Shown here in pieces: positions 37,111-40,451 of a stretch of 59,840 nt of DNA. The stretch spans positions 1-59,840 of the forward strand of contig JAAFIV010000029.1 in NCBI GenBank assembly GCA_013298775.1, in the 5' to 3' direction. Origin of the DNA: Ignavibacteria bacterium. Its GTDB lineage: Bacteria > Bacteroidota > Ignavibacteria > Kapaibacteriales > UBA4661. Every line of letters starts with the position of its first letter. The first letter of the stretch is position 1. The position numbers and the translations under genes are program-made. A model generated the notes under the pieces. The model was not told where the DNA came from. It ran no database searches and saw nothing but the letters and a program-made list of their open reading frames with translations.

Positions 37111-37833
37111 TTACAAGGCTTTTTCAATCGCTGCTTGAATGGCAATGCGGTCGCTCACGCGGCGTGGTGCGTCCAGATACACGCTTTGCACGGTCAGCGT
37201 ATCCGCGTCTTTGCTGGCTTCGAGGGAATTTCCTGCGCGAATCATAACTTTTTTTACCGAAAGAAGCGCGGTGCGTCCTGTGTCGTAGCGCATGATTTCA
37301 CTCAGCGCATCGAAGAGTGCGGCAATTTCATCTTTCAAATTCAAATAGGTGCTGTTCCCTGCTGGAAGCGTGTCCCATTCAACATCGCATGCAAACTCGA
37401 TATTTTCCAGTTGTTTGAAATCTTCGAGATATTGTGCAATAAAGCGTTTTACATCCAATTTAGAAATGCTTTGCTGTTCGGCAGAAACCTCCGCAACCGC
37501 ACCACCACTGAGTTGTGCAGCCACAGTATGCGCATCCAAGACCGTAACGCCGATAATGAAACGCGCTTCGACATAGACCAAATCTTGATGCGGAAAACGG
37601 TACTCGCTGCGCGGTGAGTGCAATACGAGTGTTTCTTGATTCCGGTGCGAATCCAGCGCAATCACGTAGCCTTCAAGCGTTGCGCCACTGGAAAGATGCA
37701 CCTGTACAATCGGCAAAATTACTTTTCGCCCTTGATTAAATTGCATCCGCACTTCCGCAAGGTCGCTTAAAATCGAACGTACCGAGCGGACGGGAATTTT
37801 CGCCAGCGTGGAGTTCCATTCATTGCTGCTCAT
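37111..37833 (-). CDS. Uncharacterised protein, second gene of a co-translated pair
   Basis: 240 aa, no signal peptide or membrane segment. Residues ~38-105 look like a small beta-barrel with an Sm-like rhythm (PIVQVHLSSGATLEGYVIAL ... YRFPHQDLVYVEA), an inference by eye only. The C-terminal half has VEWDTLP, a helical stretch and DTGRTALLSVKKVMIRAG, which parallels LDWDSMPE and DDIGKNALRDRVQSILFVN in the upstream partner. Its ATG overlaps the partner's TGA (ATGA), so translation is probably coupled. Function unknown; I recognise no family. Confidence 0.72.
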   Translation of the reverse strand: MSSNEWNSTLAKIPVRSVRSILSDLAEVRMQFNQGRKVILPIVQVHLSSGATLEGYVIALDSHRNQETLVLHSPRSEYRFPHQDLVYVEARFIIGVTVLDAHTVAAQLSGGAVAEVSAEQQSISKLDVKRFIAQYLEDFKQLENIEFACDVEWDTLPAGNSTYLNLKDEIAALFDALSEIMRYDTGRTALLSVKKVMIRAGNSLEASKDADTLTVQSVYLDAPRRVSDRIAIQAAIEKAL

Positions 37834-38252
37834 AGCAAATCCTCAATTAGTTTTTGAAATTCATTGTTGTAATTATCGTAGTATTCCGAACTGTAACTGC
37901 CCCACCCACAGTGGATTTCCAAACATCCGTTGTTGATGAGCGTTTTTCTGCCGCCAGTGTCCCCGCCGGTTTTGTTGTAATTGACAAAGAGAATAGATTG
38001 TACGCGGTCTCGGAGCGCATTTTTCCCAATATCATCCACGACGATAGCTTGCATCACTTTCACAACGAGTGCGAAGCTGTATTCGTAGTCGTTTTTCAAG
38101 AATCCCTCAATTGGGTCTTCCAATTCTGGCATCGAATCCCAATCCAGATTCATCGGAATATGCCAGCCGATTGCAGCATCCAACTCCGCTTGGTACTTGG
38201 GCTGCGCGACGGTTTTTATTTCATTCAAGGCGCGTTTTTCTCGTAGTCCCAT
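37830..38252 (-). CDS. Uncharacterised protein, first gene of a co-translated pair
   Basis: 140 aa, soluble, acidic, starting MGLREKRALNEIKT. It carries LDWDSMPE near residue 37 and DDIGKNALRDRVQSILFVN, then a Gly-rich turn and a Tyr/Asn/acidic tail ending FQKLIEDLL. The order of features resembles the C-terminal half of its 240-aa partner, so the two may share a domain. No family recognised. It is preceded by a 144-bp gap (38253-38396) holding only a 15-bp near-tandem duplication. Confidence 0.68.
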   Translation of the reverse strand: MGLREKRALNEIKTVAQPKYQAELDAAIGWHIPMNLDWDSMPELEDPIEGFLKNDYEYSFALVVKVMQAIVVDDIGKNALRDRVQSILFVNYNKTGGDTGGRKTLINNGCLEIHCGWGSYSSEYYDNYNNEFQKLIEDLL

Positions 38253-38396: not shown

Positions 38397-40451
38397 TCAT
38401 TGCGCCGAATTATGCTGTGGAAATTCGAGAATAAACGTCGCGCCATTGCCGTACTCGGACTCGCACCAAAGGTGTGCATGCATACTGTCTGCCAATTTTT
38501 TTACGATGGACAAGCCTAACCCCGTTGAGCTTTCACCTGCTGTTGGGCGAGCAGACAGGCGGGCAAATTTACCGAACATCTGCTGCTTGTCTTTTTCAGT
38601 AAAGCCTTGTCCCGTGTCTTGCACGGCAATATGCACGAGAGAGTTATGCTCTGAAACCCGCACCACTACTGAACCTTTGAGCGGAGTGTACTTTATGGCA
38701 TTAGAAAGGAGATTATCCATAATATGCCGAAACGCTGTTTCATCTGCCCAGAACCACGTATTTGTGGGCTGTGCAAGCTCAAGTTCGAGCGTCAGCGAAA
38801 TGCTCTTTGCTGCGGCGGCAAGGGAATGTGCCTCAATAATATCATGCAGAATAGTTGAGAGAATTGGCTCAGGGACAAGTTTCCACGCGCCTTGTTCGAG
38901 TTTGTTAATATCAAGCAAATTCCCAACAATTGATAGCATTTGATTTGTCGCAGAGCGCACGGATGCAGCATAGTGCGCAATTTTTTCCATTTTCCCTGCT
39001 TTCAAGGACTCCGTGATAAGGTCGGTGGTGAGGTATATCGCCGAAAGCGGATTTTTTAGGTCATGAACGGCAATTCCCAAAAACTCATTCTTCTCTTCGT
39101 TCAAGGCGTGGAGCTTGATATTTTGCTCGTGCAACAAGGTATTTGCTTCTTGAATATCGGAGGATTGCTTTTCAATAATGGCTTGTTTACTGAGGAGCAG
39201 AGCTTCTGCACGCCGCGCACGACGATACAACAACCAAAACCACACCGCAGAGACCAGTATCAATGCGCTTCCCAGAAACGAAGCGTACAAGAGCAGTCGC
39301 TCACGGTGACTTTCGGCGCGGCTTCTTTCCAGCGCGTGTTGTGTGTTGGCAAGGTCGAAACGGGCTTGCATTTCAGCAATTGCATTGGTGCGGTCATTGG
39401 CAAATACGGTATCTTTCAGTTGAAACGCCAGTGTTTGTGCGCGATACGCCTCGTCGAATTGCCTAAGCGCAGCGTGTGTTTCGGCAAGTGTGGTGTACAA
39501 ATACATACGGATATGCCGCGCATTTCCTCGCACAGCCTCACGCTCCGCCTCGCGTAAATACGGCAAACTCTCCACAGGACGCTGTAAGATATTAAGGGTC
39601 GTTGCAATATCAATCAGCGTTTCCACGATATGCGGCGAAGGCGGTAGAAGCCGCTCCATTGCTAATGCTTTAAGGTGATATTCAAGAGAGCGCGTGTAGT
39701 CTTTTTTGTCGCTATACACCGCGCCCATGATATTGGTATTGATGCTCACACGGGTCATATTTCCTGCCTCGCGAAACAACCGCGCACCTTCGGATAAGTC
39801 CTGTAAAGCTCGGTCGTAGTCGCCGTACAAGCGGCGAAAAACCTGCGCTCGGCTGGAGATGTTATACGCAATCCGTTCTTTATCGCCCAATTCTTCTGCG
39901 ATTGCAATGGATTGATTGTAGCATTCCATCGCTTTTTCATACCTTGCCGTGCGCAAATGCACATTCCCAATATGCGTGTACACCCGCGCCACTTCTTGCT
40001 TTGCACCAAGCTCTTGAAAATGCGTTGCGGCATCGGTAAAATGGCGAAATGCGTTGTCGTACAAATTTTGGAACCAGAAATAGATTCCCAAACTGAGCGA
40101 GGCGTATGCTTTCCCACGCTTAAAATCCAGTATTTGTGCTATGCTCAAGGCTTTTTCGCTATACGCTTTCGCTTTTTCAGGAAAAACAGGAGCGTATTCA
40201 ATAGCAAGTTCGGAAAGCACCAAAGAGCGCGTAGAATCCTGTGTTGCAGGTAAAGTGGCAAGAACCTGTTCCAAACTATCTGCCCGTACATTCCGCATGG
40301 ATGCTTGCTCTCGTACAGGGGAAGATTGTGCAAGGAGATGGTTTGGACATATCAGAATACCCACACAGTACATTATTCCACAAGCCGCAACATGAGGAAT
40401 GAAGCGGCTTACAAGAAAATATATTGCTGTAAATATCCTGTGTGCAATCAT
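38397..40451 (-). CDS. TPR-containing sensor histidine kinase
   Basis: 684 aa, paralogue of the kinases at 11220 and 48076. A hydrophobic N-terminus precedes TPR repeats (ARVYTHIGNVHLRTARYEKA, RVSINTNIMGAVYSDKKDYT). One membrane segment (LLYASFLGSALILVSAVWFW), a coiled coil, HisKA with His463 in AVHDLKNPL, and HATPase motifs (IMDNLLSNAIKYT, DTGQGF, STGLGLSIVKKL) follow. No response regulator is adjacent, so it is an orphan unless it uses the regulator at 47317. The sensed signal is unknown. Confidence 0.92.
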   Translation of the reverse strand: MIAHRIFTAIYFLVSRFIPHVAACGIMYCVGILICPNHLLAQSSPVREQASMRNVRADSLEQVLATLPATQDSTRSLVLSELAIEYAPVFPEKAKAYSEKALSIAQILDFKRGKAYASLSLGIYFWFQNLYDNAFRHFTDAATHFQELGAKQEVARVYTHIGNVHLRTARYEKAMECYNQSIAIAEELGDKERIAYNISSRAQVFRRLYGDYDRALQDLSEGARLFREAGNMTRVSINTNIMGAVYSDKKDYTRSLEYHLKALAMERLLPPSPHIVETLIDIATTLNILQRPVESLPYLREAEREAVRGNARHIRMYLYTTLAETHAALRQFDEAYRAQTLAFQLKDTVFANDRTNAIAEMQARFDLANTQHALERSRAESHRERLLLYASFLGSALILVSAVWFWLLYRRARRAEALLLSKQAIIEKQSSDIQEANTLLHEQNIKLHALNEEKNEFLGIAVHDLKNPLSAIYLTTDLITESLKAGKMEKIAHYAASVRSATNQMLSIVGNLLDINKLEQGAWKLVPEPILSTILHDIIEAHSLAAAAKSISLTLELELAQPTNTWFWADETAFRHIMDNLLSNAIKYTPLKGSVVVRVSEHNSLVHIAVQDTGQGFTEKDKQQMFGKFARLSARPTAGESSTGLGLSIVKKLADSMHAHLWCESEYGNGATFILEFPQHNSAQ

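Follow-up and report, generated by a model that had tools for sequence, protein, structure and literature searches.

An old and linked pair of overlapping genes, which encode proteins of 140 and 240 aa (P140 and P240), is present in the window, i.e., the whole stretch of 59,840 nucleotides analysed here, which belongs to a 5.19 Mb genome (G000) of the family Kapaibacteriaceae (Bacteroidota). P140 is homologous, beyond chance, to residues 126-240 of P240, and the N-terminal part of P240 is predicted to form an Sm-type barrel. We read the two proteins as subunits of a single small module, hitherto unnamed, that would have arisen by an old duplication and an Sm fusion, a reading to which we give about an even chance. 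The two families, neither of which has a curated model, prove to be duplicates, of which one bears the putative barrel. The features are as follows:

37830..38252, minus strand: P140 gene (140 aa; single alpha/beta domain)
37111..37833, minus strand: P240 gene (240 aa; predicted N-terminal Sm-fold domain, then the P140 domain in diverged form)
37540..37782, minus strand: putative Sm-fold domain of P240 (residues 18-98; from predicted structure and fold search)
37114..37458, minus strand: P140-like domain of P240 (residues 126-240, the homologous counterpart of P140 residues 3-140)
37830..37833, minus strand: ATGA, in which the P140 stop overlaps the P240 start (four shared bases)

The overlapping genes and their shared domain

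On the minus strand P140 lies upstream and P240 downstream, and the coordinates of both ORFs, together with the four-base ATGA overlap reported by the first-pass annotation, were confirmed. A TPR histidine kinase is encoded upstream at 38397..40451, 144 bases before P140, and possesses HATPase_c (E 6e-27), HisKA (E 2e-12) and TPR domains according to Pfam. Downstream of the pair lies an 802-codon ORF, whose relative in the same-genus genome G005 (97% identity over 735 aa) is also located downstream of the pair.

P140 carries the motifs LDWDSMP (36-42) and DIGKNAL (74-80) and ends in IEDLL, while the corresponding motifs of P240 are VEWDTLP (151-157), DTGRTAL (184-190) and a terminal IEKAL. The (D)xG(K/R)xAL block and the similar ends, from which a shared domain had been suspected, are therefore present. 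A further element of that proposal, WD(S/T)(M/L)P, occurs in both window proteins but is not general to P240, where Trp occupies the place of P140 W38 in only 6 of 35 rows.

Pairwise BLASTP between P140 and P240 gave no significant signal (best E 0.53, in the wrong register), so profiles were required. By hhalign, P140 aligns to residues 126-240 of P240 with a probability of 98.4-98.5% (E 8e-15 to 1.8e-15). In the control run, the real score was 94.6, compared with a maximum of 15.9 (mean 11.4) for 40 column shuffles of the P240 alignment and 13.5 for its reversed form, and P140 against the Sm half of P240 alone reached a probability of 0.2%. At E<1e-3, the P140 profile recognised 27 of the 47 P240 genes, missing 20, and no gene outside the two families in a set of 1041 genes; the reversed gene set gave a single match (E 0.0051). 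In the AF2 models, helices and strands follow in identical order in P140 and in the C-terminal domain of P240. The shared domain proposed in the first-pass annotation is thus borne out by profile-profile comparison with shuffle and reversal controls. A likeness of motifs without homology, combined with an incidental overlap, would agree with the non-significant BLASTP result and with the opposite-strand ORFs of 130-160 aa that also cross the region, but this reading is already refuted by the controlled profile comparison and is further opposed by the matching predicted folds and by linkage in many genera, so that its probability is practically negligible.

When 62 P140 domains and 35 P240 C-terminal domains are placed in one tree, which is based on only 136 columns and contains several long branches, one branch splits the two groups (support 98/90; recovered in 98% of 200 bootstrap trees), as would be expected from one old duplication.

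The AF2 model of P140 (mean pLDDT 83, pTM 0.80) has the order alpha-beta-alpha-alpha-beta-beta-beta-alpha, with helices at 3-28, 51-70, 74-83 and 124-139 and strands at 34-36, 86-91, 104-107 and 110-115. Neither P140 nor P240 had a credible match in Pfam, NCBIfam, PADLOC or PHROGs (best E 0.11), and no family among the anti-phage defence models of PADLOC was found for either protein at E<=0.1. The P140 domain appears to be a new domain, with no curated family for either protein. Single relatives of the pair matched Pfam families at E 0.0096 at best, each family in no more than one member, and these matches were unusable. The structure search with P140 found no significant match among PDB or viral models (best Foldseek E 0.17). 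Several metallopeptidase chains recurred in the fold search at Z 3-7.1, which is within the background range of the tool; among them was the anthrax lethal factor protease domain, at a Z of no more than 7.1. A kinship with zincin-type metallopeptidases is not claimed, because these scores are background and the HExxH zinc-binding motif is present in 0 of 62 P140 rows. No relatives of P140 were found in viral contigs and phage records, and the plasmid search gave one partial match (E 4e-3). Weak P140 matches in three genomes (G239, G279 and G315; loci L021-L023; E 0.002-0.007) were dropped as chance, since the surrounding ORFs are other genes and the P140 profile misses them at E<=1e-5. Signal-peptide-like N-termini, as judged by eye, were observed in two P140-domain proteins, L018 (1432-1926) and L062 (6797-7423), so the domain apparently can work outside the cytoplasm.

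The P140 family alignment (62 rows) shows an N-terminal MGLxEKR motif and, at 73-80, a DDxGKxAL motif. Residues L3, E5, D73 and G76 are present in 62/62 rows, W38 in 61/62, R7 in 59/62 and K77 in 57/62, a conservation that is partly built in, because the loci were fetched by a D73-G76-K77 pattern (the bait pattern covers D73-K77, and 53 of the 62 rows carry the bait motif). Among the nine rows without the bait motif, E5, R7, W38, D73 and G76 are kept in all nine and K77 in four. Among 11 rows from a sequence search (alignment A3; five with the motif), R7, W38, D73 and G76 are kept in all 11, and E5 and K77 in ten. The P240 C-terminal domain (35 rows) has R or K at the place of R7 in 35/35 rows and D or E at that of D73 in 32/35, while the place of E5 is taken by L, V or F in 35/35. 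The mean identity over paired loci is 37% for P140, 22% for the Sm domain and 23% for the P240 C-terminal domain. With P140 better conserved and the P240 domains diverged, constraint seems to lie on P140, with P240 as its diverged partner.

The putative Sm-type barrel of P240

The AF2 model of P240 (pLDDT 83) has a pTM of 0.52, which indicates low overall confidence in the arrangement of its domains. It consists of two N-terminal helices, five strands, a helix at 101-108, and then the same order of elements as in P140. The predicted barrel (18-98) is made up of a helix (18-33) and strands at 42-47, 52-63, 66-73, 84-89 and 93-98, the last two being separated by a short helix; over residues 41-100 the block means of pLDDT are 79-93, except for 61 at 71-80. 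According to the text available from PMC5379935, the Sm fold consists of an N-terminal helix and five bent antiparallel strands, which is the arrangement found in the predicted structure of P240. An Sm-like segment at the N-terminus of the larger protein had been noticed in the first pass, and the AF2 model, Foldseek and VIA-align all lend support to this prediction.

Foldseek matched P240 to the Sm-like variant XC5848 and to Hfq chains with a probability of 1.00, none of them at E<=0.001. VIA-align, among the matches listed, placed Hfq chains on the barrel with Z 7.9-8.7 over 60-76 residues (within 11-112), while other small barrels reached similar values (designed SH3 barrel, Z 9.2; diheme cytochrome, 9.0; YaeO, 8.5; PafBC, 8.1), so that Sm/SH3-type small barrel is the safe wording. 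Sm is favoured over the other small barrels by the N-terminal helix and by two Sm1-like glycines, G50 and G55, which are invariant (35/35 rows).

The sequence evidence for an Sm identity is weak. Against PDB profiles, the barrel matched Sm D3 at E 0.07 with alignment A4 and 0.3 with the larger alignment A7. The only match below 0.001 over the barrel, ahead of Sm D3, was uridylate kinase (E 6e-4 with A7). It was set aside, as it covers the Sm barrel, is absent with A4 at E<=10 and is also absent from the P240 fold matches among those listed. P240 itself matched no Pfam family at E<=10, including LSM (PF01423), and the best LSM-type match among 10 of its relatives was LSM12_LSM (E 0.18, one member).

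Residues D61 and N65, which we take to be the Sm1 Asp/Asn positions (loop 3), are kept in 6/6 Sm domains of the genus, and an Arg at position 89 or the equivalent one, presumably the Sm2 position, in 4/6, the window's protein being one of the two without it. All three are assumed here to be Sm RNA-contact positions. In the wide P240 alignment, D61 is present in 12/35 rows and D61 together with N65 in 2/35; the usual contact residues are thus kept in the window's genus and not family-wide. Since the Asp/Asn pair is mostly lost outside the genus, protein binding or assembly would be the more general role of the Sm domain. Within the genus, where the pair is kept, the domain could bind RNA, a role that seems to us rather unlikely.

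The Hfq profile PF17209 matched in none of six genus genomes at E<=0.01, with a control search finding Hfq in 5 of 14 known genomes. Bacteroides are generally reported to lack Hfq, ProQ and CsrA, as stated in the available text of PMC12119571. Given this report and the absence of a match in the six genus genomes, an Sm-type barrel in this phylum is a concrete candidate for RNA binding. It might be supposed that P240 forms an RNA-binding ring that replaces Hfq in Hfq-less bacteria, with P140 as its cap or regulator. The predicted Sm fold with its N-terminal helix, the lack of Hfq matches and the contact residues kept in the genus agree with such a role, but the same residues vary across the family, and the Sm half is as poorly conserved (22%) as the rest of P240. 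The sporadic occurrence (7 of 296 genomes) is also unlike that of a global chaperone, and the by-eye signal-peptide-like proteins L018 and L062 imply a domain not tied to RNA; we therefore regard Hfq replacement as unlikely. A broader form of the idea, in which P240 forms Sm rings whose second, duplicated alpha/beta domain recruits P140 into a new bacterial Sm machine, a two-subunit RNA-handling ring of Hfq-less Bacteroidota and some Myxococcota that is unrelated in sequence to Hfq, is very doubtful.

Distribution, linkage and gene neighbourhood

In the window's genus, P240 is possessed by six of eight genomes, its own included (the other five proteins are 54-92% identical to the window's), and P140 by two of eight. 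Profile searches of the genus genomes gave only one further match for P140 (G003), which falls inside a P240 gene, and P240 occurs without P140 in four of the six P240-bearing Kapaibacteriaceae genomes of the genus. The same pair is carried by Candidatus Kapaibacterium sp. PH2015_12D_48_15 (L084; Kapaibacteriaceae, Bacteroidota). Profile searches of 296 genomes of the phylum found P140 in eight, full-length P240 in seven and both in six, and the two genes are adjacent in all six genomes that hold both. The hypergeometric probability of this co-occurrence is 2e-10, a value that ignores kinship, with five of the six genomes coming from one family. An eighth genome (G140) and extra rows in the P240 search represent P140 detected through the shared domain.

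Further loci (68) were fetched from a species-genome collection with the P140 alignment and a pattern on the stretch 73-81. Because these P140-baited loci are biased in pairing rate and in conservation of the baited stretch, the 296-genome searches and the rows outside the bait were counted separately. A six-frame profile search found P240 directly downstream of P140 in 30 of the 68 loci, both genes in another arrangement in eight (L036 and, with the operon described below, L026 and L028-L033), a fragment in one (L093) and P140 only in 29, where DNA was examined up to 7 kb per side and less on short contigs. Pairs occur in Bacteroidota and in Myxococcota (L049, P240 E 3e-21; L059). P140 without P240 was found in Actinomycetota (L053, L057, L058), Bdellovibrionota (L040, L054), Walliibacteriota (L044), Lujinxingia (L046), Pseudomonadota (L062) and many Bacteroidota, and the P140 domain is present in at least six phyla.

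The 36 P140-P240 junction rows include 33 distinct pairs, of which 29 have gaps of at most 15 nt (-4, -1, 0 and +1 among them) and the remaining four gaps of 28-516 nt, with starts called mechanically. The identities of the P140 and P240 domains correlate over 32 loci (r 0.79-0.81, kinship not removed), while 1000 permutations, run for the C-terminal domain only, gave at most 0.23. Between Saccharicrinis and Flammeovirga, which belong to different families, the P140 domains are 89% and the P240 domains 84-89% identical, which suggests, without proof, a transfer of the pair as a unit.

The P140-P240 order is therefore kept far beyond the genus, as seen in 30/68 loci and in 6/6 co-occurring genomes. 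The linkage in relatives that the first-pass annotation had proposed as a check holds in many genera, but lone P240 in 4/6 genomes of the genus and lone P140 in 29/68 baited loci and in two of the eight P140-bearing genomes indicate that the two are not obligatory partners, and the refutation by unlinked relatives set out there applies in part. Since the solo forms show that either protein can exist without the other, P140 probably serves as an additional or exchangeable subunit and not as an obligate one.

In the gene maps, no third gene common to most P140/P240 loci was found, and hence the neighbourhood indicates no pathway. Among 125 neighbour proteins no longer than 900 aa, Pfam identified 119 families; the 25 among the matches listed are mixed housekeeping and regulatory families, of which the commonest was AraC-type helix-turn-helix (five members). 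Several local contexts were observed. In 11 Flavobacterium loci (L068, L071, L072, L073, L076, L077, L080-L083 and L092), a protein of one cluster is encoded directly upstream of a lone P140; TPR was found in the L076 member, and the N-terminus appears membrane-like by eye. Lone P240 of Kapaibacteriaceae is followed in L010 (6101-7030) and L012 (10064-10918) by a lipoprotein-like gene of about 300 aa, similar in the two loci, whose start coincides with the P240 stop or lies 56 nt beyond it (likeness and starts judged by eye). Near the lone P140 of Kitasatospora, Catenulispora and Streptomyces (L053, L057 and L058) lies a very large regulator gene, which we take to be LuxR/STAND-like. A family of 1566-1623-aa proteins is encoded near the pair in two different genera (L089, 8158-13026; L091, 1743-6443), and the L089 member has no Pfam match above the cut-off.

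Genes of one cluster also stand beside the pair in L075, L079 and L091, and the one in L079 is similar to Imm11 (E 6.5e-4, which does not reach the Pfam cut-off). P140-domain proteins could be viewed as small immunity- or antitoxin-like binders, with P240 as a variant bearing an oligomerisation barrel and the module countering or modulating an effector. The cluster just named, the short genes, their patchy presence across several phyla, their duplication in some loci and the signal-peptide-like variants are compatible with this view. However, no recurring toxin-like gene was seen in the gene maps, the neighbour families listed (25 of 119) include no toxin family, PADLOC gave no match, and the polar residues of P140 are invariant across phyla, which would be unlike fast-evolving immunity families; the view is quite unlikely in our estimate.

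A recurrent operon in Maribacter and Tenacibaculum consists of a TPR kinase, a LytTR regulator, P140, P240, a P140-DUF6882 fusion and an M48 peptidase-TerB fusion. It was located in L026 (2177-9659), L027, L028-L030 and L033, and with another gene order in L031 and L032. The families were tested in L026 and, for the fusion only, in L028, and the LytTR label was assigned by eye. DUF6882 was detected in the L026 fusion at E 2e-28, the L028 fusion has an LRR_5 insert, and those of L029 and L030 match it in length. Saccharicrinis and Flammeovirga possess members of the clusters of this operon in a different order.

Of the 478 genes at distances 1-4 from the module, 55 belong to two-component clusters, compared with 5 of 205 at distance 5 or more, and a TPR-kinase/response-regulator cluster lies within three genes in 27 of 65 loci, nine of which come from one P140 group. 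Together with the TPR histidine kinase upstream in the window and the TPR-kinase/LytTR operon, these counts would fit a module that serves as an accessory of membrane or TPR-type signalling, in which P140 and P240 bind TPR kinases or their targets and tune the two-component system. Yet the kinases are not of one type (the window's has HisKA, that of the operon His_kinase PF06580), and in G005, the closest relative to carry the pair, an unrelated gene on the opposite strand lies directly upstream, with the kinase three genes away. The two-component association is suggestive only, since the single-linkage clusters (c2/c3) lump both kinase types and nine loci represent one group, and the accessory role seems quite doubtful.

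The proposed module and known systems

The two-subunit module remains the reading that we favour. A single alpha/beta domain would have been duplicated long ago, and one copy fused to an Sm-fold barrel to give P240. Translational coupling would keep P140 and P240 in stoichiometry, and the homologous domains would dock P140 onto P240 to make up a hetero-oligomer; we rate a complex through the shared domains about as probable as its opposite. The barrel may assemble P240 into a ring or similar oligomer via the edge strands beta4-beta5, or it may alternatively hold a ligand, RNA or protein, for P140 to act on. P140, better conserved and with E5, R7, W38, D73 and G76 invariant or nearly so, is probably the working part, while P240 would be a faster-evolving adaptor, whose domain copy has lost E5 and mostly W38. 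Even if the barrel is only an assembly device, the pair still gives a domain family and a bicistronic module that are open to annotation.

In the available text of the literature on Sm proteins, Hfq and Bacteroidota (including PMC11697453, PMC12119571 and PMC5379935), nothing on the P140/P240 pair was found, and the literature search found no paper on DUF6882. The DUF6882/M48-TerB operon of marine Bacteroidota includes P140, P240 and the P140-DUF6882 fusion, whereas in the window neither DUF6882 nor M48-TerB lies directly beside the pair.

As in Hfq (PF17209), an N-terminal helix and five bent strands are predicted for the P240 barrel. Hfq assembles into hexameric rings and binds A/U-rich RNA. 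Unlike Hfq, P240 has no match to the Hfq profile and no recognisable Hfq Sm2 sequence motif; its barrel is joined to an alpha/beta domain of 115 residues, and the protein is paired with P140. The Lsm/Sm proteins of archaea and eukaryotes (Sm D3) show a weak, non-significant profile likeness, and the P240 of the window's genus has an Sm1-like spacing of G50, G55, D61 and N65, but P240 differs from them in architecture. The best Foldseek match of P240 (E 2.4e-3) is XC5848 of Xanthomonas (PDB 2e12), whose entry chain of 93 residues is without a second domain (TM-score 0.49 on the target and 0.21 on the query). P140/P240 would thus represent a kind of Sm-fold system with a new partner domain, a member of neither the Hfq nor the Lsm family.
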